The position numbers were made by a program, and so were the translations under genes. A stretch of DNA of 64,000 bases, from contig NZ_CP128399.1 in NCBI RefSeq assembly GCF_030389965.1, forward strand, positions 2,594,934 through 2,658,933, in the 5' to 3' direction. Under the pieces are notes generated by a model. It had not been told where the DNA came from and made no database searches. It saw only the letters and a list, made by a program, of their open reading frames with translations. Source of the stretch: Candidatus Chlorohelix allophototropha. Lineage in GTDB: Bacteria > Chloroflexota > Chloroflexia > Chloroheliales > Chloroheliaceae. Of this stretch, positions 435-15,665 are shown piece by piece (the stretch's first letter is position 1; each line of letters begins with the position of its first letter).

Positions 435-1721
435 TTACTCTAAATAATCCTTGAGTTTTTTGCTGCGGCTGGGGTGTCGCAATTTCCTCAAAGCTTTTGC
501 CTCTATCTGGCGAATGCGCTCACGGGTTACCCCGAACTCACGCCCAACTTCCTCTAGTGTGCGGCTACGCCCGTCATCTAGTCCAAAACGAAGTTGCAAT
601 ACCCGACGTTCGCGCTGAGTTAGGCTGTCCAACACATCCTCCACCTGTTCTTTAAGTAACTGGTGGCTGGCGGCATCGGCAGGAGCAAGCGCTTTTTGGT
701 CTTCAATGAAATCGCCTAGATGCGAATCTTCTTCTTCGCCGATTGGCGTTTCAAGCGAAACCGGCTCTTGCGAAATTTTGATAATCTCGCGCACTTTCTC
801 AGCCGGTAAGCCCATCTCGCGAGCAATTTCATCGCTGGTTGGGTCACGACCGAGTTCCTGTACCAACCGGCGGCTGGTGCGAATCAAACGATTGATGGTT
901 TCAACCATATGCACCGGGATACGAATTGTACGTGCTTGGTCAGCAATTGCACGAGTAATCGCTTGGCGAATCCACCAAGTAGCGTAGGTGCTGAACTTAT
1001 AGCCTTTGCGATAATCGAATTTCTCAACTGCACGGATTAGCCCGATATTGCCTTCTTGAATAAGATCCAAGAGTGACATACCGCGCCCGATATACTTTTT
1101 GGCAACGCTAACAACTAACCGCAAGTTAGCCTCGGTTAGATGGCGACGCGCTTCATCATCTCCGGCTTCCATCCGTTTCGCCAAATCTACTTCCTTAGCA
1201 GCAGTTAGCAAAGGAACTCGCCCAATCTCTCGCAGATACATACGAACCGGATCATCAATGCTCATGCCTTCTAGGTCGAAAGCAATATCTAAGTCAGGAT
1301 CAGGCTCATTCGAATCTTCACCCTTACCACGTGGGTTAAATTCTTTAGCATCGTCCAATATTTCAATGCCGAGTTCAATAAGTTCAGCATAAACATCTTC
1401 TATTTGCTCTAGATGTGACTCCGGCTCAGGAACCGCTTGCAGGATCTGATCTTGGGTAACATAGCCCTGTTTTTTGCCCCGTGCCAGCAAATCACTGAGA
1501 TTGCTTACAGGTTCTAAAGCTTCTAAGGCTTTATCGGGGCTAAGGACATCCTCGTCCATCAATACCACATCCTCATCCAGCAAATCAGGTTCCAAAAGAT
1601 CCTCTGGCTCTACTTCTTCCTCGGCAGGTTTTTCAGCCAGACCGAGCAAGCGATCTACATCGTCGACCTCCTCAACAAGAGTATCTCCTTCGTAGTGCCG
1701 CTTGCGCTTTGTATTACCCAT
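435..1721 (-). CDS. rpoD: Primary RNA polymerase sigma factor, sigma-70 family
   Basis: This is the housekeeping sigma factor that directs core RNA polymerase to -10/-35 promoters. The 428-residue protein has an acidic N-terminus, a short region 1.1-like segment (around residues 75-120), region 1.2 with [16 protein letters not shown], region 2 with [16 protein letters not shown] and the -10-binding stretch [21 protein letters not shown], region 3, and region 4 ending in [18 protein letters not shown], the -35-binding helix-turn-helix. It has the short form without the large non-conserved insert of E. coli RpoD. The ATG has a GGGGAG site upstream. It lies 229 bases downstream of dnaG on the same strand, the usual dnaG-rpoD order of the macromolecular synthesis operon, and ends in a strong terminator. 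Confidence 0.97.
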
Positions 1722-1950
1722 TATTTTCGCACTCCCCTATCCCCTAAAAGAATATATTTTTAATCAAGCAGTTTGCGTTTGTAATTATTATTTGATATAT
1801 TGAGCTTGTTTGAAGCATATGTACTCAAACATCATATGCTGGTCTGGTTTTGGCTTCGCAACGTTTGCGCCAATAGAGACCTTTGTTTAAGTTGGTTTGC
1901 TTCCAGACCATAACCACATAAACTATATGATTCTCTAGTATAACCCCTAA

Positions 1951-3975
1951 TTACCGATCACGACTATCTTTAAAAATAACGCTCAAGCTGGGTTGGTTAT
2001 TAAAAATTTCTACCCTAAGCTGGTCGGCTTGCCGGAAAATTTCATCTTCATTTTCCAACATGTTTTCGTTAGCGCCATCCGCATTTTCGCCAGTATTTGC
2101 CAACTCTTCGCAATTGCGTTGCATCTCTACTAATGTTGGTACGAAATCCATTGCCCTAGAGTTACGCAAGCGCCTCAGTTGAAACTGAAAAGCCAAACTT
2201 ACTTCACCATATGGGTCAAGTTCCGGTTGCGCGTTTACATCTTCCATAAGCTGCGCAAAGTAGCTTGCCATCTCCGGAGTAAATGATTCTTCTACTTCAG
2301 TTAATGAAACCCCATGTTGCTTGGCTTCAATCAATGATTCATACAGAAATCGATTTTCGCCTTTTCTAAAATCATCAGAAGAAACCTGTTTATCCTCTTG
2401 CCCGGTATTATCGAGAGCTTTCGAATAACGCCACACGAAAGCAAGGAGCTTGTCCTCGTAATCCAGTTGGCGACGCGCTCCTATTTGGATAACCCGTGGT
2501 GGAGTTTCTTCACTTGTATCTATATCAACGCCAGAAACCGTGTTATCGTTCCTGCTTTTTTCGGCAGAAGGTTTGGAATATTGTGCTCTGGAAACCCGCT
2601 TTAACTCAGCATATAGCAAATCCGCGCCGGTATTGGTTATTCGCGCCAGTTTCTGGATATAATGTTCACGTTCTATACGATCGCGTACTTCCAGAATTAC
2701 CGGAATAAGGATTTCTACTGCTTCACTCTTGCCCCGCGCATTATTTAAGTCCATTGAAGCAGCTACACTAGTAAAAGTGTAATCGACTACCGGAACAGCG
2801 CGCGCGATCATTTCTTTCCAACGATCGGGACTCTCGCGAACCACTTCATCAGGGTCTTTGCCGGTCGGTAAAATCGCTACTCTTATATCGGCATCGAGTT
2901 GCTGTTCGAACTGAATCAGCCCTTTGGGGTTAGGAACCGCAACGCTATAGCTATCAAAACCTCGTTTTAGCACTTCAATGCCTTGCAAAGTTGCTTTCTG
3001 TCCGGCATAATCGGCATCGAGCGCCAACACTATACGTTTGGTAAGTTTCTTTAATGATACAACATGCTTTTCGGTCAAAGCCGTTCCCAAAGGCGCAACC
3101 ACATTACTAAAACCTGCTTCGTGCGCCGCGATAACATCCATGTAGCCTTCAACCACTACCGCACAATCACTGTGGCGGATGCTATCCCGCGCTAAATCAA
3201 ACCCGTAAAGTGTGGCGCTTTTGTCAAACAGAAAAGTTTGAGGCGAGTTCAGATACTTTGGCGCATCGGAAGGTGCGCCTTCAAGCACACGACCCCCGAA
3301 AGCGATAATCTGTCCTTGCCTGTCTTTGATCGGAAAAATCAGCCGACCCCGAAACCGATCGTAATAGCCGTCCCCATTTTCTCTTTCGCCCACCAGCCCG
3401 GCTTGCACCAATTCTTGTGGTGAGAAGCGACCTTTGGCGGTAAGATGTTTAAATAAATTATCCCAACTATCCAGAGCATATCCAAGCCCGAACAGTTCAA
3501 CAGCTTTTGGTGTTACCTCACGTTTCGCCAAATAGTCGCGGGCAGCCTGACCCTCATTGGATTTGAGCAACAAATGGCTAAAATAGATTGCCGCCGCTGC
3601 ATTTATTTCTTTAAGACGTTCTTTAAGCTGCTGTTGAGATTGGATTTCAGGATCGGGGGCGATTTGTGGCTCGCGTTCAGGCAAATCCACTCCCGCCCGC
3701 TTTGCCAGCATTTCCAGCGCTTCGTTAAATTCCAGCCCTTCGGTTTTCATGGTGAAGGTAAATACATCGCCGGATTCATGACAGCCAAAACAGTAATAGC
3801 TCTCAGTTTGGGGAAATACAAAAAAACTTCCGGATTTTTCACCATGAAAAGGGCAAAGACCTTTATAATTTTTCCCGGATTTTTTAAGCGGGACTCGCGC
3901 GGAAATATGATCCACCACGCTCAAGCGTCGCTTAATTTCTTCGATGTAGTTAGGCACAAAGCCATTCATACGCAT
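1951..3975 (-). CDS. dnaG: DNA primase
   Basis: This enzyme makes RNA primers for lagging-strand replication in complex with the DnaB helicase. At 674 residues it is in the family's usual range. The N-terminal CHC2 zinc-binding domain shows C41, H44, C62 and C65. The central TOPRIM domain shows the VVVEGYMDV glutamate motif and the LALDADYAGQKA aspartate motif. The long variable C-terminal part (from about residue 430) is the helicase-interaction region. Two in-frame ATGs compete, at 3975 and two codons later at 3969; the second is better spaced from the AAAGG upstream. rpoD follows on the same strand. Confidence 0.96.
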   Translation of the reverse strand: MRMNGFVPNYIEEIKRRLSVVDHISARVPLKKSGKNYKGLCPFHGEKSGSFFVFPQTESYYCFGCHESGDVFTFTMKTEGLEFNEALEMLAKRAGVDLPEREPQIAPDPEIQSQQQLKERLKEINAAAAIYFSHLLLKSNEGQAARDYLAKREVTPKAVELFGLGYALDSWDNLFKHLTAKGRFSPQELVQAGLVGERENGDGYYDRFRGRLIFPIKDRQGQIIAFGGRVLEGAPSDAPKYLNSPQTFLFDKSATLYGFDLARDSIRHSDCAVVVEGYMDVIAAHEAGFSNVVAPLGTALTEKHVVSLKKLTKRIVLALDADYAGQKATLQGIEVLKRGFDSYSVAVPNPKGLIQFEQQLDADIRVAILPTGKDPDEVVRESPDRWKEMIARAVPVVDYTFTSVAASMDLNNARGKSEAVEILIPVILEVRDRIEREHYIQKLARITNTGADLLYAELKRVSRAQYSKPSAEKSRNDNTVSGVDIDTSEETPPRVIQIGARRQLDYEDKLLAFVWRYSKALDNTGQEDKQVSSDDFRKGENRFLYESLIEAKQHGVSLTEVEESFTPEMASYFAQLMEDVNAQPELDPYGEVSLAFQFQLRRLRNSRAMDFVPTLVEMQRNCEELANTGENADGANENMLENEDEIFRQADQLRVEIFNNQPSLSVIFKDSRDR

Positions 3976-4472
3976 CGCCTTTAGCCGGTAAAACCTCGAT
4001 AACCCTAAACAGTCAGCCCCTATTAATACAAAATAATACTGCCGCCCTTAAATTCAAGGTCGACATATAAAAAGGATTTTGTTTTTTTTATTCGATTCAG
4101 GGCACCGGTAGAATATCGGATATCCCTAAGCAGTAAGTGCCAAGATTCGCACACTATTATGTACGTCTTTTGGGTGACCTTTTATTCTACCCCTTTTTAC
4201 ATTCAATTTTCAAGTGGTTTTTCCACATATATTGTTCCAGTTTGGTGTATAACTATGTGCAAAATTTGTGGGCAAAATGTTTATTAATCAAGCGTCTTGG
4301 AAAAAACAGGGGGTAGCTCGAAGAATTTTTGGGCGATTCAGCCCTTAATACTAGCATTGGAGGGTGAAATTACTAGGATTTCGGGTGGCGCTGACTAGCT
4401 ACCTCTATGAGAAAAGGCAAGTATCCGAAAACTGAACAAAGTTTGAGGAAAATTGCCTCGGGGGAGCTTTGC
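3976..4472. other. Intergenic region without a recognisable gene
   Basis: This AT-rich stretch of about 500 bases separates the start of dnaG from the stop of the metallophosphoesterase, both on the minus strand. I find no coding frame with a ribosome-binding site, no tRNA-like cloverleaf and no clear terminator. It presumably carries the dnaG-rpoD promoter, but I could not pick a convincing -35/-10 pair on the minus strand. Confidence 0.5.
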
Positions 4473-5252
4473 CTAAACCAAATGGATACTGGGCAGTTGC
4501 AACCCGGCACGTCGTAAGACTGGCGCTGACACATTATAAACCGGGATGCCTTTGCGGGTCAGCCCATTATAGCTGCCACGATGGGAGTGCCCATGAAAAC
4601 ATACGGTTGCGCCTTCTTCATCCAAGGGTCTGGCAAGCCATTCCGCCCCCAAAACCCCGTATAGTTCAGGCGATTCACCTTTCAGAGTATCTTTAATCGG
4701 TGAATAGTGCATTATGGCAACTTTAAGCGGCGTATTGAGAGAACGCAGCCCTTTAGCCATCCTACGTACATCCTCAGCGGTTTCCCGCATTACCGCTTTG
4801 CCTTCTTCCTCCCCAAAGGCAGAAATTACGTTGGGATTGAAACCGCCCCAAAAGCCTTTCACCCCTACAAAACCAACTTGGTCATTATAAACAAACAGGT
4901 TGTCATCCCCAAAGAAAACGCGCACCCCTGCTTCTTGCATCAATTGAACCAATTGGCGTTCTTTCCCACTATGGAAATCATGATTACCCAGCACTGAAAG
5001 AACCACTACACCCTTTTGAAGGGCTGGTTTAAGGGCAGCAAGAAATACTTCCATCTCAGTAGTGCGCCCGTTGTCGGTAATATCTCCGCACAGAATTAAT
5101 ACTTCTGCACGTTCATGGACACCCGAAAACAAGTGTTTCATCTGGGAAAATGAGCGTTCGGTACAGTGAATATCACCGATAGCCGCGATACGGATGGGCT
5201 TAGAATGGGCAGGTGCGATCGCTGAACCGATACTCTGTGAAGGCGATTCCAT
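4473..5252 (-). CDS. Calcineurin-like metallophosphoesterase
   Basis: This is a di-metal phosphoesterase of unknown substrate. The 259-residue protein shows the full family signature in order: GDIHC near residue 28, GDITDNG near 57, GNHD near 92, a histidine in MHYSP, and GHSH near the C-terminus. These supply the metal ligands and the catalytic histidine. No signal peptide or membrane segment is visible, so it is probably cytoplasmic. The ATG at 5252 has only a weak ribosome-binding site. It lies alone between dnaG and the divergent acyl-CoA dehydrogenase genes. The reaction is supported; the substrate is unknown. Confidence 0.88.
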   Translation of the reverse strand: MESPSQSIGSAIAPAHSKPIRIAAIGDIHCTERSFSQMKHLFSGVHERAEVLILCGDITDNGRTTEMEVFLAALKPALQKGVVVLSVLGNHDFHSGKERQLVQLMQEAGVRVFFGDDNLFVYNDQVGFVGVKGFWGGFNPNVISAFGEEEGKAVMRETAEDVRRMAKGLRSLNTPLKVAIMHYSPIKDTLKGESPELYGVLGAEWLARPLDEEGATVCFHGHSHRGSYNGLTRKGIPVYNVSAPVLRRAGLQLPSIHLV

Positions 5253-5362
5253 TTATGTAAAGCTGTTTCTACTTGGCTTGAATCTTAACTTCGATCATTT
5301 GTAATGGTTAACATTCTACTATGCTGATCACGATTTGTCATGCAACCGGATTTTAAAAATGG

Positions 5363-5380
5363 TAAAATGACAGCGCTGTC
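5363..5380 (+). promoter_or_regulatory. TAAAAT box followed by a 12-bp palindrome, possible operator of the acyl-CoA dehydrogenase genes
   Basis: A TAAAAT sequence (5363-5368) is followed immediately by a perfect 12-bp palindrome, GACAGCGCTGTC (5369-5380), 62 bases before the first acyl-CoA dehydrogenase gene. A dimeric repressor site in this position would block transcription, as TetR-type regulators of fatty-acid genes do. No good -35 hexamer sits at 16-18 bases. Palindromes of this length also occur by chance in 64 kb, so the call is weak. Confidence 0.25.
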
Positions 5381-5442
5381 GCGGAAGATAAGTACAAAAC
5401 TAGTGCGGAAAGCCACATAGAAGTGGCGGGGAGTGCAAATAT

Positions 5443-6597
5443 ATGGATTTCCAGCTAAGTGAAGAACATCAGCTTTTCCAACGTACTGTTCGTGAGTTTG
5501 CTGATAAAGAAATAGCTCCTAAAGCCCTTTATTATGATAAAAACCACGAATTCCCATGGGAAAATATCAAAAAGATGGCAGCGTTAGGGCTATTGGGAGT
5601 GCCTTATTCCGAAGAATGGGGCGGCGCGGGCGGTGATAGCCTGATGTATGCCATAGCGGTTGAGGAAATCAGCCGTGCCTGTGGTAGCACCGGAATTATT
5701 CTAGCAGCACATACCTCCCTTGGATCTGCTCCCTTCTATCTATTTGGTACGGAAGAGCAAAAACGGAAATATCTGATTCCGCTGGCACGCGGTGAAAAGC
5801 TCGGTGCATTTGGTTTATCAGAAGCTGAAGCTGGTAGCGACGCAGCAGGAACGCGCACAACCGCTGTACTTGATGGTAACGAGTGGGTTATCAACGGCAC
5901 TAAAAACTGGATTACCAGCGGTAGCCTCGCAGATACTGTAATCATTACCGCAATGACCGACAAAAGCAAAGGGGCGCTTGGCATATCGAATTTTATTGTT
6001 GAAAAAGGTACGCCCGGTTTCAGCTATGGTAAAAATGAAGAAAAGATGGGGTTGCGTGCCTCTGTAACCAGCCAACTTTTCTTTGATAACTGCCGTATCC
6101 CCAAAGAGAATATCCTAGGACAACCTAATGATGGCTTCAAGCAATTTATGCAAATTCTGGACGCAGGGCGCATCAGTATCGGCGCGATGGCGCTTGGTAT
6201 AGCGCAAGCCGCCTATGAAGCTGCGATTCGTTACGCCACCCAACGCCACCAATTCGGGCGACCGATCAGCGATTTCCAAGCGATTCAGTTCAAGCTGGCA
6301 GATATGGCGACTCAACTTGAAGCGGCACGTCTCTTAATTTATCGCTCTGCTTGGTTAAAAGATAAAAAATTACCCTTTGGCAAAGAAGCAGCAATGGCAA
6401 AATTGTTTGCCAGCGAAGTAGGCGAACGTGCCTGTCATCAAGCGATTCAGATACATGGAGGCTATGGTTACGTCGAAGAATATCATGTCGAGCGTTACTA
6501 CCGTGATATTCGTCTCTGCGAAATCGGCGAAGGTACTTCTGAAATCCAACGAATAGTCATAGCACGCCATCTGTTGCGCGAATTGAAGCATCAATAG
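5443..6597 (+). CDS. Acyl-CoA dehydrogenase (first of a tandem pair)
   Basis: This FAD flavoenzyme introduces a trans-2 double bond into an acyl-CoA, passing electrons to electron-transfer flavoprotein. Its 384 residues are the normal length for short/medium-chain enzymes. Visible motifs are the substrate/FAD loop GLSEAEAGSDAAGT, the WITSG segment, a C-terminal IQIHGGYGYVEEY block and EGTSEIQR, where E363 is the expected catalytic base of the butyryl-CoA dehydrogenase type. The ATG follows a GGGGAG site. The next gene, 14 bases downstream, is a close paralogue, so the two are probably co-transcribed. The exact chain length or branched-chain specificity cannot be read from the sequence. Confidence 0.93.
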   Translation: MDFQLSEEHQLFQRTVREFADKEIAPKALYYDKNHEFPWENIKKMAALGLLGVPYSEEWGGAGGDSLMYAIAVEEISRACGSTGIILAAHTSLGSAPFYLFGTEEQKRKYLIPLARGEKLGAFGLSEAEAGSDAAGTRTTAVLDGNEWVINGTKNWITSGSLADTVIITAMTDKSKGALGISNFIVEKGTPGFSYGKNEEKMGLRASVTSQLFFDNCRIPKENILGQPNDGFKQFMQILDAGRISIGAMALGIAQAAYEAAIRYATQRHQFGRPISDFQAIQFKLADMATQLEAARLLIYRSAWLKDKKLPFGKEAAMAKLFASEVGERACHQAIQIHGGYGYVEEYHVERYYRDIRLCEIGEGTSEIQRIVIARHLLRELKHQ

Positions 6598-6611
6598 GAT
6601 AAAACAAAACT

Positions 6612-7769
6612 ATGGATTTACATCTTACGTCAGAACAGGAAATGATTCGCCAAGTAGCCCGCGAGTTTGCCGACAAAGAACTATTACCCACTGCTGCCCA
6701 TTTTGACGAATTGCAGGAGTTCCCTACTGCCCTTTGGAAAAAGCTCGGCGAAATGGGCATGATGGGTTTGGTTATCCCTGAAGAATGGGGCGGTGCAGGG
6801 GTGGATACGGTTAGTTATGTGCTGGCATTAGAGGAAATTGCGCGGGGAAATCCTGCGCTCAGTACCGCTATGTCGGTAAACAATTCGCTAACTTGCTATG
6901 GTATCTGGAAATTCGGTACTGCCGAACAGAAGCGCAAGTATCTGATACCGTTGGCACAAGGTCAAAAGCTAGGCGGATATTGCCTTACTGAAGCCGAAAG
7001 CGGAAGCGATGCTGCTAAAATGCGCTCTACAGCGACCCTTCAAGGGGATAAATACCTTCTGAACGGTTCCAAGATATTTATAACCAGTGGCATCTCCGGG
7101 CATATCTATCTGGCTTTTGCCATAACCGACAAAACGAAGGGTTCGAACGGTATTTCCTGCTTCATAGTAGAGAAAAGTTTTCCCGGTTTCAAAGTTGGTA
7201 AAAAACTGGACAAATTGGGGATGCGCGCCAGTGACACCACCGAGATAATTTTCGAGAATTGTGAAGTGCCGGTTGAAAACCTCCTCGGAGAGGAAGGGGC
7301 AGGATTTAAACTTGCCATGCAATTGCTGGACGGTGGCAGAATCGGAATTGCAACCCAAGCGTTGGGTATCGCACAAGCCGCCTACGAGTTTGCCTTACGT
7401 TATGCCAACGAACGGCAACAATTCGGGCATAAAATATATGATTTTCAGGCGATTCAGTTTATGGTGGCGGATATGGCAACCCGTATAGAAGCCGCCCGTT
7501 TGTTGGTATATAAAGCAGCGAGCATGCGAGATCAAGGCAAAAATGTGGGACTTGAAGCCAGCATGGCAAAGCTGTTTGCCAGCGAAACCGCTATGAAAGT
7601 CACTACCGATGCCGTCCAAATATATGGTGGTTACGGGTATATCAAAGAATATCCGGTTGAGCGTTACTTCCGAGACGCAAAGGTTACAGAAATATATGAG
7701 GGTACAAGCCAGATTCAAAGGTTGGTAATTGCCAGAAATCTGCTCAGGTCGCTTGCCGGTTCACACTAG
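6612..7769 (+). CDS. Acyl-CoA dehydrogenase (second of a tandem pair)
   Basis: This 385-residue flavoenzyme is a paralogue of the preceding one, alignable over its whole length. It has CLTEAESGSDAAKM as the FAD/substrate loop, IYGGYGYIKEY, and YEGTSQIQR with E363 as the expected catalytic glutamate. Tandem copies that have diverged this far usually differ in substrate preference; here I cannot say which chains each uses. The start ATG lies 14 bases after the stop of the first copy, and a membrane-protein gene follows 33 bases downstream, so all three could share a transcript. Both enzymes are soluble and would need an electron-transfer flavoprotein encoded elsewhere. Confidence 0.93.
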   Translation: MDLHLTSEQEMIRQVAREFADKELLPTAAHFDELQEFPTALWKKLGEMGMMGLVIPEEWGGAGVDTVSYVLALEEIARGNPALSTAMSVNNSLTCYGIWKFGTAEQKRKYLIPLAQGQKLGGYCLTEAESGSDAAKMRSTATLQGDKYLLNGSKIFITSGISGHIYLAFAITDKTKGSNGISCFIVEKSFPGFKVGKKLDKLGMRASDTTEIIFENCEVPVENLLGEEGAGFKLAMQLLDGGRIGIATQALGIAQAAYEFALRYANERQQFGHKIYDFQAIQFMVADMATRIEAARLLVYKAASMRDQGKNVGLEASMAKLFASETAMKVTTDAVQIYGGYGYIKEYPVERYFRDAKVTEIYEGTSQIQRLVIARNLLRSLAGSH

Positions 7770-7802
7770 CCAGCGACGTGCCCGAATTTAAATGGAGGAT
7801 AT

Positions 7803-10016
7803 TTGTCAACCACTTCTCAGGATAATTTTCAAAACAGGGCGCAAATTATTCCTGCAACCTTGAATCATAGGTTTTCCACTTTATCTATAATTATCTGGCT
7901 GCTGCTAACGGTTTTCTCAGCTGTTTTGCTTTACTCAATTACTCGGCGAGTTACATTCCTCGCCGATGATTATATTTTTCTAGGGCAACTTACGTTTACC
8001 CATCCAACATTTGCCGATAACTTGAGTTGGTTTGGGCGTGATTGGGGAATAGGGGCACAGTTTTATCGTCCGTTGGTAAGGCTTGGTTACTATTTTCAAT
8101 TTCTGATTTTTCAGGATAACCCCACCGGATGGCATTTGGTTTCGGTAGCCTTACATGCCGCTAATGCCGCACTAGTATGTTTGATCGGTTGGCTGATAAG
8201 CAAACGAACAGTGGTAGGCGGGGTAGCCGGGCTGATATTTGCCCTCCAGCCGATTCACAGTGAACCAATCGCTTGGATTAGTGGTCAGGGTGATTTGCTG
8301 GCAACGTTTTTTGCGCTTGGCAGTCTGATATGCTGGATAAAGTATCGGCAACACCCTAAACATGCCTTAAAATGGTACATTGCAACATCAAGTCTATTTG
8401 TATTTGGGCTGTTCAGTAAAGAAGCCGCCATAGCCATTCCATTGGGATTGTTGGCGTATGATTTTGTAACCGGAGGGCTAGATCTCTTTTGGCAACACAA
8501 CAAGTTTTCTAGAGCTGCATTGCAGCGGTTGATTATTGCCTATATCCCGGTTTTATCCATATTTCTTGCTTACCTGATTCTCAGGATTGTGCTTTTTAAG
8601 GGTCTGGGTGGTTATGGTGGCGAGGCAGGACAAAAGCTAGATTTTGGATTGCTTGTGAGCAATTACACAAACTGGCTAATTACACCTTTTCAGTTCTCAG
8701 GCACTACCGGGCTGGTTTTAGTAGGACTTATTATTGCGTTTACAGCGTTAAGCGCGGTTCAAGAATGGGAGCGATTTCGCCTTCAACATGGTTTATCCCT
8801 CGATACCGAACCAACCCGCCCAACCAAAGCTGCCTTGCCTGCTGAGAATGATGAATTAGATGATCCGAATTTTCCTATCTTCCCTCAAATTCAACTTACT
8901 CCCAAACCTGTAGAAGCGCCAGTTATTCCAAAGTTTCCTTCACCGCCCTACTATACAATGCGCACCGCTGGCTTTGGCTTTCTTTGGATAATTCTCTTTC
9001 TTCTATCGGTGCTATTTACCCTACCGGCAGAACGTTTTACCTATCTACCAAGCATTGGTTTTGCGCTTTTTACCGGAGCGATCATAGCTCCTTATTTTGC
9101 CAATACTCAATCAAAAACCCGCACTTTCATGGAATTGGGTTTTTGGCTCAGAGTAATTGCAATAATAGCCTTGCTTGGTTCATATGGCGCAACCAGTTCT
9201 GCCAGAATCCAACAATGGTTGGATGCCGGTAATACCTCACGTCAGATTCTAAATCTGACCAAAGAAGTCATACCGAGCGTGACAAATTATGTCCACATTG
9301 TGAGTGAAGGAGTACCTGATAGTAATGGTGGTGCATTAATTTTCCGAACCGGATACCCTGATGCAATCCGGTTGCTCTACAAAAATCGCACAATTGATGT
9401 GGAAAAGGTTGATAAACTGCCTATTTTGCAAGATCGCCTTAAAAACTCAATCTTCCTCGAATACAAAGGCGAGAATCGGTTGATAAACCATACCGAAATC
9501 GTGGATGCGATGCTAAAGCGCAACGAGGCGTTAAAGCAGAGCAAATCTTTTCTTAGCTGGAGCTTTGAACTTAGCGTTTCCGGCAATGCGGTTTCAGGTA
9601 ACTGGTTTGATCTAAATAATACTGGTTCATTAGTCTCGCAAGATACGGGTTTGTCCGTCAACGCCTCACGAGGTGTTTTGCTGCAAAGCCCCGATTTTAC
9701 ACTTGCGGCTGCGCAAGTGGGTTCGTTGGATATTACAATGAAAGTTGCCTCAAAAGGGCGCGCCTATCAGGGGCAAGTAACTTGGCTAACTAATAGCTCA
9801 CCCGACACTGCCTCCAAAACTACCGTTTTCTTCGACATCATTGCAGACGGGCAATTTCATACTTACCATATATCACCCGAAGTTGCGCGTAATTTTGGCT
9901 ATGCCGAACAGGTAGCGAGGATCAGACTTAGCTTACCAGATGGGCTTGAAGATGTAATAATCAAGAAAATTGAGCAGTTCCAGCTACCGTTCGATTACCA
10001 AACGCTTCAAAAGTAG
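7803..10016 (+). CDS. Multi-membrane-spanning GT-C-like protein
   Basis: The 737-residue protein has an N-terminal half of about ten hydrophobic segments and a soluble C-terminal part (from about residue 480). Just after the first membrane segment is an acidic pair (LADDYIFLG), where GT-C glycosyltransferases carry their catalytic aspartates. It is followed by FYRPLVRLGYYF and PIHSEPIAWISGQGDLLA, which resemble the TMTC / O-mannosyltransferase-like group using lipid-linked sugar donors. A hydrophilic insert of about 80 residues lies between membrane segments. Translation appears to start at a TTG, with GGAGG four bases upstream. The gene ends only 7 bases from the convergent dnaJ-like gene. 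Glycosyl transfer is inferred; donor and acceptor are unknown. Confidence 0.65.
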   Translation: MSTTSQDNFQNRAQIIPATLNHRFSTLSIIIWLLLTVFSAVLLYSITRRVTFLADDYIFLGQLTFTHPTFADNLSWFGRDWGIGAQFYRPLVRLGYYFQFLIFQDNPTGWHLVSVALHAANAALVCLIGWLISKRTVVGGVAGLIFALQPIHSEPIAWISGQGDLLATFFALGSLICWIKYRQHPKHALKWYIATSSLFVFGLFSKEAAIAIPLGLLAYDFVTGGLDLFWQHNKFSRAALQRLIIAYIPVLSIFLAYLILRIVLFKGLGGYGGEAGQKLDFGLLVSNYTNWLITPFQFSGTTGLVLVGLIIAFTALSAVQEWERFRLQHGLSLDTEPTRPTKAALPAENDELDDPNFPIFPQIQLTPKPVEAPVIPKFPSPPYYTMRTAGFGFLWIILFLLSVLFTLPAERFTYLPSIGFALFTGAIIAPYFANTQSKTRTFMELGFWLRVIAIIALLGSYGATSSARIQQWLDAGNTSRQILNLTKEVIPSVTNYVHIVSEGVPDSNGGALIFRTGYPDAIRLLYKNRTIDVEKVDKLPILQDRLKNSIFLEYKGENRLINHTEIVDAMLKRNEALKQSKSFLSWSFELSVSGNAVSGNWFDLNNTGSLVSQDTGLSVNASRGVLLQSPDFTLAAAQVGSLDITMKVASKGRAYQGQVTWLTNSSPDTASKTTVFFDIIADGQFHTYHISPEVARNFGYAEQVARIRLSLPDGLEDVIIKKIEQFQLPFDYQTLQK

Positions 10017-10023
10017 CCGGATT

Positions 10024-10935
10024 TCATTGAGGCTTGGGAATTAGCTTGCAGTACAAGTTCCCACGCCGATGTGAAGAACCTTTCAAAAGCCCATGCCGCC
10101 GAATAGTGATAGTTTCACCGCTAAGGGAATGCGCCGGTATTTTAAATATTAGCTCGCCTCCCTCCGGCGCGGGTAAAGCCCATTCTCCCCCCTTTGCTAA
10201 GACCTCTAAAGGCACTTCAACGGTAGTATATAAATCACGTCCTTCTATCTGGAATTGTGGGTGTGGCAATAGTTCAACCAGAACGTGAATACTGGTTGCA
10301 TAGGGCATATGTAGCGGATGCGGAACATTATCTATCCAATGACGCATTTCTATTCGCATCGACATATCCGGTAACATTCCGGGTGGAATATTTATTTCTA
10401 ATATTTCAAAAGAAACCAGAAATCCGTTACCATCACAACGAGGGCAGGTTTGAGCTTTGTGAGGTAGTACACGTGCCCCTCTGCAACGCCCACAAGTGTG
10501 AGTTTGTCCAACGTTGATAGTACGTTTCGCTCCTCTAAAAAGCTCTTGTAAAGTAATTCTGACCCGGTAACTCAAGTAAGAAGTACGCGGCATATGCGGT
10601 TTGCTCATAGAGCAGCGTTTGGGGGTTGAACGCACTTCCTGTTGATAAGTTTTGGTGGCAGCCGCAGCATAGGCGCCAACCCCAAACCAATCGTCTTCCG
10701 ATTCAACACTATGGGATGTAGCGCTTTTTTGAAGGATGGAATCGTAGGCAAGCCGTTTTTGAGGATCGCCAAGAATTTCGTAAGCCTGTTGTATAGCCAG
10801 AAATTGATCTGCTGCCTTGGGGTTGTCAGGATTCAAGTCAGGGTGAAATTTCTTGGCTAAACGCCGATAGTTTGCCTTTATTTGTTCGGGCTGTGCCCCT
10901 ATATTTACTTCGAGTAATTCATAATAATTTTTCAT
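10024..10935 (-). CDS. DnaJ-like co-chaperone with a shortened zinc finger
   Basis: This J-domain protein would stimulate a DnaK-type chaperone. Of 303 residues, the first 70 form the J domain with the HPD triad in KKFHPDLNPDNPKA. A linker without an obvious Gly/Phe-rich stretch follows, then the first beta-barrel start (LFRGAKRTINVG). Only two CxxCxG motifs are present (CGRCRG and CPRCDG), where classical DnaJ has four, so at most one zinc site can form. The C-terminal substrate-binding barrel follows (IPPGMLPDMSMRIE, VEVPLEVLAKGGEW). It is intermediate between DnaJ and CbpA. The gene runs convergently into the GT-C-like gene. A full-length DnaJ probably exists elsewhere in the genome. Confidence 0.85.
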   Translation of the reverse strand: MKNYYELLEVNIGAQPEQIKANYRRLAKKFHPDLNPDNPKAADQFLAIQQAYEILGDPQKRLAYDSILQKSATSHSVESEDDWFGVGAYAAAATKTYQQEVRSTPKRCSMSKPHMPRTSYLSYRVRITLQELFRGAKRTINVGQTHTCGRCRGARVLPHKAQTCPRCDGNGFLVSFEILEINIPPGMLPDMSMRIEMRHWIDNVPHPLHMPYATSIHVLVELLPHPQFQIEGRDLYTTVEVPLEVLAKGGEWALPAPEGGELIFKIPAHSLSGETITIRRHGLLKGSSHRRGNLYCKLIPKPQ

Positions 10936-11066
10936 ATCTATCGAATCTGTATTTTACTAAAAAAAGGAACTTAAAAAAGGGCTAAAAGGCTGTATTCAAG
11001 CCTTACTACTTTAGGTTATAATATAAAAGAACAAGCATCCATCATTCCTTAATTCAGCTTTTGAAT

Positions 11067-11091
11067 AAAAAAACGCGGGACTGCTCCCGCG
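11067..11091 (-). terminator. Rho-independent terminator of the FAD oxidoreductase
   Basis: A 7-bp G/C stem (11074-11080 with 11085-11091) is followed on the minus strand by seven T. It lies about 25 bases beyond the stop of the oxidoreductase gene and separates it from the dnaJ-like gene. Confidence 0.85.
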
Positions 11092-11116
11092 ACTCGTTTC
11101 TATAGCAGCCTGAACG

Positions 11117-12310
11117 CTAAAGAACATTTCTTTCCCGATTATAATTTCCGGTACGGAATCTTTCGATATTGAGTTCTGCCACCTCCACCGTTTTGATATC
11201 ACCGTCAATTATGAGTTCGGAAATTGAAAGTCCAACCGCAGGGCTTTGCATGAAGCCGTGCCCGCTAAATCCGGTGGCAAGGTAGAAATTATCTAATTCG
11301 GGAACTTTGCCGATAATACCGTTATGATCCGGCGAAGTATCATACAAACCCGCCCAACCGCTCAGGATACGCGCACGCTCAAGCGCCGGGACTCGATACA
11401 TAGCGTGTTCCGCCACCGTATCAAGCCAATTCCAATCCAGTGTTATATCAAAACCGGGTTTTTGAGTAAGGTCGCTTTCTCCCATCAAGAAACCGGGACC
11501 TTCCCGCCGAAAATGAAAGCCGTTTAGCATATCAATGACGAAAGGAATTTGCGCCGGGATTTCTGAAAAAGGCTCAGTAAAGAAAGCCTGCCGCTTGACC
11601 GGCTCAACCGGGATTTCTACATCTAGCATCTCTCCTAAAATGCCACTCCATGCTCCGGCACAACCCACCACTATTCCGGCAGAAATCTCACCCCGATTAG
11701 TTTCAAGGCTAAGCAATTCCCGACCGCGCCGTTTAATAGCGGTAACCTCAGTATTTTCCCAAACTTTGACCCCCATTTTGCGGGCTTGTCTAGCGTAAGC
11801 GAAAACTACATCGGTGGTGCTGGCATAACCATCGGTCGGACAAAAAGTTGCGCCGATGACATCCTCAGTCATTAGAAAATCCCACCTTTTCGAAACTTGT
11901 TCATTTGTCAGAACTTCAACCGGTACACCTAGACCTTGCTGAAGCGCCGCATTTTTCTTGAAGACTTCCATATCTTCAGGTCTGGTAATAAGAAAGAGGT
12001 AGCCAACCTGTTTGAAATTTGCGCCTGTTTCGTCCGGTTCCATCCCAAGCCGCTGGTTAAAATGTTTGAAAAAATCCACCGAGTATATACAAATACGAAT
12101 ATTGGCTTTAGTAGAGAATTGCTGCCGCACTCCCCCTGCCGCTTTCGCGGTTGAACCTGACCCTAACAAATCGCGCTCAAGAATTACTATATTGGTACAG
12201 CCACGTTTTGCCAGATTCCAAGCAATACTAGTTCCCAATACTCCCCCACCGATTATTACGACATCAGCCTTTTGGGGAAATGTTTTAGAACTGGACAGGA
12301 TTTGTGACAT
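11117..12310 (-). CDS. FAD-dependent oxidoreductase of the DadA / sarcosine-oxidase-beta family
   Basis: This enzyme would oxidise an amine or amino acid at a carbon-nitrogen bond. The Rossmann FAD motif VVIIGGGVLGTSIAWNLAKRG is at the N-terminus, followed by an acidic ribose-binding residue in VILERD and the conserved STAKAAGGVRQQ loop. The C-terminal FAD-contact block is YLATGFSGHGFMQSPAVG. The ATG at 12310 has AGAAGG seven bases upstream; a longer frame would begin at a TTG at 12346 without a ribosome-binding site, so I chose 12310 (397 residues). Candidate substrates are D-amino acids, glycine, sarcosine or proline; none is singled out. It is alone, with its own terminator. Confidence 0.86.
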   Translation of the reverse strand: MSQILSSSKTFPQKADVVIIGGGVLGTSIAWNLAKRGCTNIVILERDLLGSGSTAKAAGGVRQQFSTKANIRICIYSVDFFKHFNQRLGMEPDETGANFKQVGYLFLITRPEDMEVFKKNAALQQGLGVPVEVLTNEQVSKRWDFLMTEDVIGATFCPTDGYASTTDVVFAYARQARKMGVKVWENTEVTAIKRRGRELLSLETNRGEISAGIVVGCAGAWSGILGEMLDVEIPVEPVKRQAFFTEPFSEIPAQIPFVIDMLNGFHFRREGPGFLMGESDLTQKPGFDITLDWNWLDTVAEHAMYRVPALERARILSGWAGLYDTSPDHNGIIGKVPELDNFYLATGFSGHGFMQSPAVGLSISELIIDGDIKTVEVAELNIERFRTGNYNRERNVL

Positions 12311-12497
12311 CTTACTACCTTCTAAATACTGAAATAATTCTGGCAAATCATAGTGTGCCTAATGTAACACCGCTAGCTATCTCGGTCAATTGTAAATTGT
12401 TTTAAAATTCTTTCTATTGTATGAATGCACATAATTTCATGAAGAGTTGCTACTTGAAGTTTGTGTTTTAGACTACCGCAAAGTAACACTTGAGTAG

Positions 12498-12537
12498 TAT
12501 AATCTGAATATGAGGTCAGTGGTAAACTCATATTTTT
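12498..12537 (+). promoter_or_regulatory. TATAAT box and leader hairpin upstream of the bacteriochlorophyll synthase operon
   Basis: A perfect TATAAT at 12498-12503 is followed by an 8-bp inverted repeat (12507-12514 with 12527-12534) running into five T (12533-12537). If the TATAAT is the -10 box, the hairpin would sit at the very 5' end of the transcript and look like a weak attenuator or stabilising stem. No -35 match is seen at 16-18 bases. The stem is AT-rich, and repeats of this size occur by chance. Confidence 0.3.
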
Positions 12538-12570
12538 AAAATTATACTGCAAAACAAGAAATTACTGGGA

Positions 12571-13530
12571 ATGAGATCACAAGAAACTTTAACGAAAAAT
12601 AAGCCTAATATGCCAAAACCTGCAAAATCCACCTTGCGAGGTCACTTGGACTTGCTTGATCCGGTAACATGGGTAGCAGGACCACAAGGTTTTATAAGTG
12701 GTGCTGTAGCAAGCGGCGGGATGCAGCTGGATTGGAAAACCCTAGGGCTGATGATTATCGGCTCAATTCTGGTAGGACCACTCCTTATTGGTTTCAGCCA
12801 GTCGATCAACGATTTTTTTGATCGTGAACTGGATGCCATTAATGAACCGACACGCCCGATTCCGGCAGGGTTGGTAACTTTAAGGGGCGCTATTCTAAAC
12901 TTCACGGTTATAGCAATACTTGCAATAATTTCGGCAGTTTTGCTGGGCTTGCTAGGTGGGCAAAACCCCGGGTTTATCATTCTAGTGACTATCCTAGGTC
13001 TAATACTAGGCGCAATGTACAGCATACCGCCCTTCGAGTTCAAACGCAACGGTATAACCGGACCACTTTCAGTAGGAATAGGCTATAACCTGATGACCTG
13101 GATGACAGGTAATATGGTATTTAGCGATTTCAAGATCGAAATATTTGTGGTCGCGTTAGTAAATGCTTTTGTGGCAGCCGGTTTGCTAGTACTGAACGAC
13201 CTGAAGAGTATAGAAGGGGATAAGAAACTTGGCTTACGCACCTTGCCCGTGATGCTAGGCGTGAAAAAAGCCTTGTGGGTCTCATATATCTATATTGACT
13301 TGTCACAAGCAGCATATGCGGTGTATCTTGCTGCTATTGGGCATTACTGGATAGCATTAATACAAGTGGTGGCATTGGTATTCCAGTTTTTAGCGCAACG
13401 CCCGTTATACCTGAACCCCACTCACAAACAATACAAAAAATATTTGCTTACAGGCAACGGCTTAATTGCAGTAGTAGTATTTATTTCTGCCCTTAGTTTT
13501 GGTGGTTACGACCCGTTTAGAACTTGGTAA
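12571..13530 (+). CDS. bchG/bchK: (Bacterio)chlorophyll synthase, UbiA prenyltransferase family
   Basis: This membrane enzyme esterifies the C-17 propionate of a (bacterio)chlorophyllide with a geranylgeranyl, phytyl or farnesyl tail. The 319-residue protein has about eight membrane segments. The first prenyl-diphosphate motif, NDFFDRELDAINEPTRPIP (N80, D81, D84, D88), is the form specific to the ChlG/BchG/BchK branch. The second is NDLKSIEGDKKLGLRTLPV (D210, D217), and a GPLSVGIGYN block lies between them. It heads a set with an alpha/beta hydrolase 4 bases downstream and a DXS-like gene. Whether it makes bacteriochlorophyll a, bacteriochlorophyll c (BchK) or chlorophyll a cannot be decided without a tree. 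The presence of BchU in the window makes BchK worth testing. Confidence 0.9.
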   Translation: MRSQETLTKNKPNMPKPAKSTLRGHLDLLDPVTWVAGPQGFISGAVASGGMQLDWKTLGLMIIGSILVGPLLIGFSQSINDFFDRELDAINEPTRPIPAGLVTLRGAILNFTVIAILAIISAVLLGLLGGQNPGFIILVTILGLILGAMYSIPPFEFKRNGITGPLSVGIGYNLMTWMTGNMVFSDFKIEIFVVALVNAFVAAGLLVLNDLKSIEGDKKLGLRTLPVMLGVKKALWVSYIYIDLSQAAYAVYLAAIGHYWIALIQVVALVFQFLAQRPLYLNPTHKQYKKYLLTGNGLIAVVVFISALSFGGYDPFRTW

Positions 13531-13534
13531 AGAA

Positions 13535-14398
13535 ATGGCTTACGTTAAAATTGGACAATCCAATAGCCCTATTTTTTATGAATTAAGCACACCTGCCGAA
13601 CCAGAGGGCACTGTTATATTCATTAATGCGTGGTGTTCATCAGCACGGTATTGGAAAGAAACAGTAAAAAGGATTTCGTCCCGTTTTCAAACCCTGACTT
13701 ATGATCAACCGGGTATCGGACGTAGCCTTTCAAAAGAAAAACCATTACCAGCCACATATAAAGGCACAATTGATAATGGCAGTAACGAAGTGCTTGAATT
13801 AATCGAACACCTTCAACTGCTAGATAAACCTGTACATGTGGTGGGACATTCATTGGGCGTCGTTATAGCAACGCATCTCGCTACTGTTTTGGAGTCACGT
13901 GGCAAACTGGCAAGCTTAACTATCATCAATTGCGGTAGTTTTGAAATCGAGGATCGCAAGGGCGAAATACTTATACCCTTTATCAAATTAGTGGTAAACG
14001 TAAAACGTATCCTTGAACTGCCGGGTTTGCGACAATTAACTATCCGTAAGTTGACCGCACGCCCAATCGAAAGCATCTACGAGCAATTCATTATTAGCGA
14101 TATGGTAGCTTCAGATATACGTATAGCACGTGAACTAGCGCTTTCTTCACTTACTCCTGTCAATCTAGAACGCTACCATCACGAAGTTGATGCGCTTAAA
14201 GCGCCGCTTTTGCTAGTAGTGGGTGATCGAGATGGAACGATTCCACCTAAGGGAATGTACAACATTAAACGTTTCAAACCAACAGCTAATCTTGTACCAT
14301 TTCCCGACTGTGGTCATTTTCTTATGCTTGAACGACCTAACCGTTTCGCCGAAGTGTTGTTGCAACATCTAAGCCTTAATGTTATATCTTTTCGTTGA
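13535..14398 (+). CDS. Alpha/beta hydrolase coupled to the bacteriochlorophyll synthase gene
   Basis: This soluble alpha/beta-hydrolase has a complete catalytic triad: the nucleophile serine in VGHSLGV, an aspartate in VVGDRDGTIP and a histidine in PDCGHFLMLERP. The oxyanion region is FINAWCSS and the YDQPGIGRS strand follows. The ATG at 13535 lies 4 bases after the synthase stop, so the two genes are almost certainly translated from one message. A TTG 36 bases further upstream would overlap the synthase and lacks a ribosome-binding site. Some bch clusters contain the alpha/beta-fold protein BchO, and chlorophyllases share this fold, but nothing in the sequence fixes the substrate. A role in pigment or prenyl-ester turnover is an inference from position. 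Confidence 0.8.
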   Translation: MAYVKIGQSNSPIFYELSTPAEPEGTVIFINAWCSSARYWKETVKRISSRFQTLTYDQPGIGRSLSKEKPLPATYKGTIDNGSNEVLELIEHLQLLDKPVHVVGHSLGVVIATHLATVLESRGKLASLTIINCGSFEIEDRKGEILIPFIKLVVNVKRILELPGLRQLTIRKLTARPIESIYEQFIISDMVASDIRIARELALSSLTPVNLERYHHEVDALKAPLLLVVGDRDGTIPPKGMYNIKRFKPTANLVPFPDCGHFLMLERPNRFAEVLLQHLSLNVISFR

Positions 14399-14470
14399 AA
14401 ACCATTTAGTTAGTCAGTACATTTTAATCGACAATAAGAACAATAATATAAACTGGTAGCCCAACAAAAT

Positions 14471-14530
14471 AATCTGGAGAATCCCAGCATAATGTTTCGG
14501 TATTAATTCGCAAGAATATATCTCCAGATT
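14471..14530 (+). repeat. 10-bp inverted repeat in the leader of the DXS-like gene
   Basis: AATCTGGAGA at 14471-14480 is the exact reverse complement of TCTCCAGATT at 14521-14530, with 40 bases between. In RNA this would be a 10-bp stem ending 36 bases before the start codon. Inverted repeats of this size are expected a few times by chance in the window, so a regulatory role is only a possibility. Confidence 0.3.
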
Positions 14531-14566
14531 TCGGGTAATCACCTGGCTCGAAAGGAGAAATTTGCC

Positions 14567-15598
14567 TTGAGCCGAAATGCAAACAAACAAACTGTACCAC
14601 GTAAACTCCCCCATGTCGTCACTTATGAGGGTGATGGTTTACGACATTGCCTGTTTGACCTACTCAAGTCTAATAGAAACGTGATGTTTCTAGCTTCAGG
14701 ACAGGCAACTCATAGTTTTCCCACACCGGGAAACCTACTGGCACAAATAGCGTGGGAAGTAGGGAACAGGTATCCACCTCGCCTGTTTGGACTTGGGGAA
14801 TTTTTACAAGACCTTGTACCCACTTCTATTAATTTAATCGCGCAAGGTTACCATCCATTGGTAATAATGAACACCACCGACCTTGCTCGCAATTATGCCG
14901 GATTATCGGCTGCCTGCGCGGCTAATATACCGATTACTTTTATACTCATCGCCGGTAAAGAAAACGGTCAAACTTGGCAACCGGCTGGCGTAAATGAGTT
15001 GTCGGTGCTTTTGACTCTTCCAAGTTTAAATATCGGTGAGCCATCCGACACGGTTGAGCTACGCCAGATGATTAAAACTGCGCTCTCCCATGAAGAGGGA
15101 CCAACCGTTATTCGTTATATCCCGTTCGAGTTTGGCAAATCTATCGTCAAACCAAATCTCGGACCTATTCCCGGTCTTGGTAAAGGGCATATGCTCAGAC
15201 AAGGCAAAGAAGTAGCATTAGTTGCTCTTGGGGATAGCGTCGAAGTCGGGTTGCGAATTGTGGAAGAACTTGAAAAGCAAGGACACGATGCAGCACTGTT
15301 AGAAGCACGATGGGCACGTCCGCTTGACCAACCACTCCTGAATGCAGTAGCGCACCACTTCAGACGCTTAATAACGCTAGAGCGCGGCGAATTAAACGGC
15401 GGATTTGGCACAGCAATTCTTGAGCATTTTGAACGGCGTAATGAGCAAGAAATTGTGGTACATCGGGTAGGGCTGGGAAGTCGAGAAAGCGATGATGTGT
15501 TTGCTTTGTGCGCTGAAGTTATTCGCTTTATCGATATTTACAATGAAAAGCAAGGATTTCAGCTACCTGTCGCTTTAAAAAGAAAATTTAGCAATTAA
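14567..15598 (+). CDS. DXS/transketolase-like protein containing only the pyrimidine-binding and C-terminal domains
   Basis: The 343 residues align with the second half of 1-deoxy-D-xylulose-5-phosphate synthase (its domains II and III). They include GKENGQTWQPAGVNELSVLLTLP in place of the DXS GxxGxTHxGxxD block, the ligand-face strand GPTVIRYIP, and the C-terminal domain with LEARWARPLD and ITLERGELNGGFGTAI. The N-terminal thiamine-diphosphate-binding domain is absent, both here and in the neighbours. The AEQHA helix is altered to LGEFLQD, possibly keeping the glutamate. Translation begins at a TTG with AGGAGA about nine bases upstream. It follows the synthase and hydrolase genes and is followed by a terminator. 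It may act with a separate N-terminal subunit or be non-catalytic; its place suggests isoprenoid-tail supply. Confidence 0.72.
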   Translation: MSRNANKQTVPRKLPHVVTYEGDGLRHCLFDLLKSNRNVMFLASGQATHSFPTPGNLLAQIAWEVGNRYPPRLFGLGEFLQDLVPTSINLIAQGYHPLVIMNTTDLARNYAGLSAACAANIPITFILIAGKENGQTWQPAGVNELSVLLTLPSLNIGEPSDTVELRQMIKTALSHEEGPTVIRYIPFEFGKSIVKPNLGPIPGLGKGHMLRQGKEVALVALGDSVEVGLRIVEELEKQGHDAALLEARWARPLDQPLLNAVAHHFRRLITLERGELNGGFGTAILEHFERRNEQEIVVHRVGLGSRESDDVFALCAEVIRFIDIYNEKQGFQLPVALKRKFSN

Positions 15599-15633
15599 GT
15601 CTTTATTTCTTTTATCTAATAATCTAAGCAAAG

Positions 15634-15665
15634 CCGGGAGGGAACATTTCCACCCCCGGTTTTTT
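15634..15665 (+). terminator. Rho-independent terminator after the DXS-like gene
   Basis: A C/G-rich stem (CCGGG at 15634 pairing with the CCCGG ending at 15659, with internal mismatches) is followed by six T at 15660-15665. It closes the unit containing the synthase, hydrolase and DXS-like genes. Confidence 0.8.

Follow-up and report, generated by a model that had tools for sequence, protein, structure and literature searches.

What might a bacteriochlorophyll synthase gene have to do with the two genes that follow it on the same strand, one for an alpha/beta hydrolase and one for a protein resembling half of DXS, the first enzyme of isoprenoid tail synthesis? The question is raised by a stretch of 64,000 nucleotides of the Candidatus Chlorohelix allophototropha L227-S17 genome (C1:2594934-2658933, called the window below), from a lineage of Chloroflexota reported to have both chlorosomes and a type I reaction centre. 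A first-pass annotation of the window had suggested that tail supply, tail attachment and pigment-ester editing are coupled there in one transcript. The reading that we prefer, and to which we would give an even chance, is that the trio constitutes an operon particular to this lineage and serving esterification, with which bacteriochlorophyll c synthesis ends. The trio recurs in L227-5C, which belongs to the same family (Chloroheliaceae) but to another genus and is the one related phototroph genome that was available for comparison.

Organization and conservation of the trio

The open reading frame (ORF) map placed the three genes on the plus strand, with frames and gaps as first annotated. 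Gene 1 (12571-13530, 319 aa) encodes a UbiA family prenyltransferase, assigned below from profiles and a tree to the bchK-type bacteriochlorophyll c synthases. Four bases after its stop codon, gene 2 begins with an ATG at 13535 and extends to 14398 (287 aa); a Pfam Abhydrolase match and the predicted fold identify it as an alpha/beta hydrolase. Gene 3 (14567-15598, 343 aa), recognized by its Transketolase_C match as a stand-alone protein like the C-terminal half of DXS, follows after a gap of 168 bases. It starts with TTG, and a Shine-Dalgarno-like AAAGGAG can be read 9 nt 5' of the start (14551-14557). The single terminator that had been noted at the end of the unit was also found, as a plus-strand hairpin followed by a T run (15630-15663). 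It folds with -17.2 kcal/mol (z -3.4), and no shuffled sequence folds as well.

In L227-5C the order and strand of the three genes are the same and the gaps are 9 and 42 bp, which supports the annotation of a single co-oriented, pigment-related unit. Since the 168-bp gap shrinks to 42 bp in that genome, co-transcription of the three genes as one message is favoured by the sequence comparison. The proteins are 61% (gene 1), 48% (gene 2) and 43% (gene 3) identical between the two genomes. Among all ORFs in a 12-kb L227-5C stretch, the trio alone matches the 64-kb window, and the flanks are non-syntenic. The block is kept in both genera of type-I-reaction-centre Chloroflexota that were compared. 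All three genes show coding constraint, with an identity of 67-79% at second codon positions as compared with 28-41% at third positions. Three other Chloroheliaceae genomes carry neither the synthase, nor the hydrolase, nor a close stand-alone DXS half. A search of 400 Chloroflexota genomes recognized no further stand-alone DXS half with a comparable score; a 429-aa DXS-like frame (159 bits) in G062, a fragmented genome, probably represents a DXS that is cut. Nine further genomes reached via synthase loci likewise held no stand-alone half comparable to the two, and their best match short of a full-length DXS was a 321-aa frame in G432 with 60.6 bits. In 80 phototroph loci, no neighbour of bchK (Chloroflexales, Chloracidobacterium) or chlG (cyanobacteria) matched gene 3, and gene 2 matched only distant Chloroflexales hydrolases of a separate family upstream of bchU-bchK. 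The collection-wide synthase scan matched mostly Chloroflexota and cyanobacteria, with Chlorobia outside the search. Within this range the arrangement was not seen in phototrophs other than these two, in line with the first-pass annotation, and a linkage of the trio beyond chance is well supported.

Assignment of gene 1 to BchK

Gene 1 scored 278 bits with the (bacterio)chlorophyll synthase model TIGR01476 (cut-off 212), and the UbiA motifs NDxxDxxxD (N80, D81, D84 and D88) and NDxKSxxGD (N209, D210, K212, S213, G216 and D217) are invariant in the alignment. The host genome assembly comprises 6.09 Mb in 5 contigs, the two largest having 2,961,161 and 2,453,413 bases; in the published genome (PMC10972752), one chromid and two plasmids accompany the two chromosomes of 2.96 and 2.45 Mb. 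The assembly contains four chlorophyll-synthase-like genes: the window copy, a copy on chromosome 2 that is 64% identical to it, and two more at 34-36%. With PRK12392, the model for bacteriochlorophyll c synthase, the window copy reached 253 bits and the first two copies together spanned 228-253, as compared with 233 for Chloroflexus BchK, 218 for a Chloracidobacterium sequence and just 118-136 for the bchG-type and chlG-like copies of L227-S17. The window copy lies under the curated cut-off (253 versus 494 bits). That cut-off does not define the BchK family, as it would exclude the accepted BchK of Chloroflexota, including the Chloroflexus type. Gene 1 also fell below the equivalog cut-offs for BchG and ChlG (PRK07566, 260 versus 313 bits; TIGR02056, 189 versus 436 bits), and PRK07566 was passed by the bchG-type (L056) and chlG-like (L055) synthases of the same genome. 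The PRK12392 score is not decisive alone, one cyanobacterial ChlG reaching 193 bits, and a tree was therefore built.

In the first tree, both L227-S17 copies and their L227-5C orthologues joined the Chloroflexales BchK and Chloracidobacterium-type sequences with a support of 100/99. A second tree, which left out the Chloracidobacterium-type sequences, the outgroup and one long-branch sequence, supported the union with Chloroflexales BchK at 100/100; neither tree took in Chlorobia BchK. Approximately unbiased (AU) tests on the second tree rejected a grouping with BchG (p-AU 3.7e-6) and with the chlG-like synthases (p-AU 2.8e-9). Of the first-pass reading of gene 1 the chlorophyll synthase family stands; the open choice among BchG, BchK and ChlG is narrowed to BchK, the tree and AU tests ruling out a generic BchG or ChlG. 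On sequence grounds, gene 1 is thus a member of the BchK (bacteriochlorophyll c synthase) clade and one of two bchK paralogues in L227-S17, in agreement with the two possible bchK homologues noted in the genome report (PMC10972752). Two of the four synthases can thereby be named as those for bacteriochlorophyll c. BchK is established as the enzyme that joins prenyl tails to bacteriochlorophyllide c (PMC9066304), and L227-S17 makes bacteriochlorophyll c (PMC10972752). In genomes of presumed Roseiflexus relatives, taken as lacking chlorosomes, the best synthase match was more distant, at 36%.

Like the BchK of Chlorobaculum tepidum and of Chloroflexus aurantiacus (Caur_0138), gene 1 combines the UbiA fold with both aspartate-rich motifs, and it falls in the Chloroflexales BchK clade. 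The Chloroheliales differ in having two copies from an in-group duplication, about 39-44% identical to Chloroflexales BchK, and in the new neighbours. The four Chloroheliales copies formed a trio-linked and a phytochrome-linked pair in the first tree (97/82 and 99/95), a split that is missing from the starred sets of the second.

The phytochrome-linked copy (L054, C2:724000-737000, 1010-8264; L053 in L227-5C, 5426-11999) adjoins genes for a bacteriophytochrome-like histidine kinase, response regulators and a DUF1997 protein. These neighbours occur in both Chloroheliales genomes and hint that the expression of one bchK copy is under light control. A deep-branching chlG-like synthase also occurs in both genomes (L055, C1:2712000-2723000, 5185-6186; L058) and probably corresponds to the chlG-like gene described with the published genome.

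Gene 2, an esterase-like hydrolase

Gene 2 matched Pfam Abhydrolase_6 and Abhydrolase_1 with 64-65 bits (cut-off 26). Its catalytic triad is intact, with S106 in a GHSLG elbow (104-108), D233 and H261, and is kept in the orthologue and in relatives. The AlphaFold model (predicted local distance difference test, pLDDT, 90.8) has the alpha/beta hydrolase fold with a multi-helix lid at about residues 142-220, and its closest solved folds are aryl and carboxyl esterases (E about 1e-16). The GxSxG elbow, the Asp, the His and the canonical fold that characterize the superfamily are all there, and by sequence and model gene 2 is an intact esterase-like hydrolase. An identity with BchO was rejected (TIGR03056, 52 bits against a cut-off of 172.55). 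Within Chloroflexota an orthologue was found in L227-5C alone; other matches had at most about 30% identity, and no further orthologue turned up in the 400-genome sample. Cyanobacterial hydrolases outscored the other Chloroflexota matches (up to 117 bits), but the tree gave no supported grouping, and gene 2 is therefore assigned to no family.

What would such an enzyme cleave? The partner gene and known dephytylase chemistry point by analogy to a pigment ester as the putative substrate, and pigment-ester editing may reasonably be inferred from the intact Ser-Asp-His hydrolase. Compared by description, the tail-removing enzymes CLD1 (chlorophyll dephytylase) and PPH (pheophytinase; PMC5853334) are similar in being alpha/beta hydrolases with a Ser-Asp-His triad and an extended lid. 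Multiple bacteriochlorophyll c species occur in the L227-S17 culture (PMC10972752), which leaves room for tail editing without demonstrating it. The literature consulted mentions no bacterial enzyme that hydrolyses the tail of bacteriochlorophyll c.

The hydrolase linked to bchK in Chloroflexales was considered as an orthologue of gene 2 and rejected, the identity being 26% as compared with 40% for the gene at C2:1374884, near fmoA, which is its true orthologue in L227-S17. At that locus (L157, C2:1368000-1382000, with genes at 6831-7862 on the minus and 8857-9978 on the plus strand) the Chloroflexales-type hydrolase has as its neighbours a gene for cytochrome c and fmoA (PF02327, 163 bits). 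In L227-5C the three lie on a single contig within about 5 kb (L158). The fmoA-adjacent gene encodes a conserved hydrolase linked to photosynthesis.

Gene 3, a predicted DXS-fold pseudoenzyme

Gene 3 matched Transketolase_C with 62 bits and Transket_pyr weakly, under the cut-off. The best DXS model, TIGR00204 (cut-off 466), scored 116 bits, and the match spanned profile positions 346-583 only. With so low and partial a match, the first-pass label of a DXS C-terminal half holds as a statement of homology and not of function. The N-terminal thiamine pyrophosphate (TPP) domain (DXP_synthase_N), which scores 379 bits in the complete DXS, is absent from gene 3. In both orthologues, alignment with the complete DXS shows Leu80 in place of the Glu of IAEQ and Asp105 in place of the Phe of STFLQR, and no DRAG or TH motif is left; the catalytic role of these residues in DXS is well established. 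The complete DXS of L227-S17 (830 bits) is encoded on chromosome 2 (C2:150880-152727), and L227-5C likewise encodes one away from the trio. The AlphaFold model of gene 3 (pLDDT 75.8) shows the DXS pyrimidine and C-terminal domains, with DXS as the best PDB matches. The split transketolase 6yaj, solved as an inactive beta4 tetramer, has a C-chain on which the model superposes as well (TMt 0.77).

With neither an N-terminal TPP domain nor the catalytic Glu, gene 3 should not make 1-deoxyxylulose 5-phosphate, and DXS activity is rejected on account of the missing domain and lost residues. By sequence and model it should be a non-catalytic DXS-fold pseudoenzyme that cannot supply tails. The first-pass proposal of tail supply is given up for these reasons and because a complete DXS is encoded elsewhere. 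Literature searches returned nothing on point for a DXS pseudoenzyme.

A possible role of the trio and its rivals

In the proposed operon, BchK would esterify bacteriochlorophyllide c using prenyl diphosphate, the hydrolase would cleave an ester bond in the pigment, or in a product with the wrong tail, and allow re-esterification or recycling. The pseudo-DXS would have a non-catalytic part, most likely binding to or regulating BchK, the hydrolase or the full-length DXS, and could tie esterification to isoprenoid status; from its sequence we infer a regulatory or scaffolding role. It is a speculative and unlikely extension that the dead DXS half was taken over as a subunit for regulation or sensing, linking the isoprenoid precursor pathway to an esterification/de-esterification pair for bacteriochlorophyll c; a pseudoenzyme derived from DXS would then act on pigment tails, specifically in the Chloroflexota with a type I reaction centre.

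The operon reading is favoured by the placement of gene 1 with BchK in the tree and AU tests, by the finding of no more than a distant synthase match in presumed Roseiflexus relatives, and by the order, strand and tight spacing kept in L227-5C amid non-syntenic flanks. The codon constraint in all three genes, the triad and esterase fold of the hydrolase, and the loss of the gene 3 active site in two genomes that each have a complete DXS elsewhere point the same way, as do the terminator after gene 3, with none above chance within the unit, and the fact that at least 11 Chloroflexales loci also have an alpha/beta hydrolase, a different one, located upstream of bchK at a distance of a few kb. 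Other observations weigh against it. The 168-bp gap before gene 3 could house a second promoter; gene 2 joins no family of known substrate, its relatives besides the orthologue being at most 30% identical; and the trio occurs in two genomes only, so that the linkage could reflect shared ancestry with weak selection.

Could gene 3 be a working DXS component after all, boosting the isoprenoid precursors for BchK? It is clearly homologous to the DXS C-terminal half, and there are split transketolases whose N and C chains are separate (6yaj). However, both orthologues have lost the catalytic Glu, the cofactor-ring Phe and the Asp/His substrate motifs, a search with the DXS model found no separate DXS N-half in the L227-S17 genome, and the complete enzyme is present, which makes this highly improbable. 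We give an equally slim chance to a pairing of gene 3 with a split transketolase-like N-chain encoded elsewhere, leading to a different TPP-dependent product. The superposition on the 6yaj C-chain and the stand-alone, two-domain form would suit such a partner, but neither neighbour is an N-chain, the catalytic Glu of the superfamily is Leu in both orthologues, Transket_pyr stays under its cut-off, and the cofactor contacts are lost. That gene 3 is a functionless, decaying DXS duplicate is improbable too. The gene 3 pair is 43% identical as compared with 71% for the complete DXS pair of L227-S17 and L227-5C, as decay would predict, whereas ORFs of 343 and 368 aa persist in two genera, the codon-position conservation argues against decay, and the motifs GLGExLxDLVPT, LIAQGxxPLV and TDLARxYAGLSA are conserved between the orthologues.

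It is possible, though we doubt it, that gene 2 encodes a general esterase or lipase for chlorosome or envelope lipids, or for wax esters, and that gene 3 is an unrelated passenger, the two sharing only their position beside bchK. The nearest folds of gene 2 are indeed generic arylesterases and lipases, and lipase-like genes also occur in the bchK clusters of Chloroflexales, a region described as containing chlorosome-protein genes (PMC3150298). On the other hand, the close junction of genes 1 and 2 (4 bp here, 9 bp in L227-5C) and the three-gene block are kept while all flanking genes differ, and the hydrolase and DXS half are confined to two phototrophs among the sampled Chloroflexota and absent in the other genomes of the family. 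Two unstudied proteins have been identified that travel with one bchK copy. If the operon reading is true, the trio would reveal how chlorosome pigment tails are adjusted or recycled in green bacteria and would provide a case of a DXS-derived pseudoenzyme.

Transcription signals and other bchK loci

Upstream of the unit lies an intergenic region (12347-12570 in the ORF map), with a divergent FAD-dependent oxidoreductase gene across it. The promoter of the unit must sit in this region if the three genes are one transcript; promoter-like matches to a consensus there were not above chance. The consensus terminator scan missed the hairpin at 15630-15663, probably because of its loop limit, and its single plus-strand match inside the unit (14192, within the hydrolase gene) is at chance level.

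The csm/bchU-bchK cluster of Chloroflexales (the Caur_0137-0138 region) resembles the trio locus in that bchK stands in a co-oriented cluster containing alpha/beta hydrolases. It differs in that the trio locus lacks bchU and known chlorosome genes, the hydrolase is not orthologous, and the Chloroflexales cluster has no DXS half. In Oscillochloridaceae-type genomes (L071, L074, L077, L078 and L148-L150) a second, separate BchK clade was observed, 56-59% identical to the main copy and without the bchU cluster. At least 11 Chloroflexales bchK loci (L062-L076 and L087) share an upstream run of a 344-aa-type hydrolase, two small unknown proteins, one or two lipase-like hydrolases and, mostly, bchU, followed by bchK.

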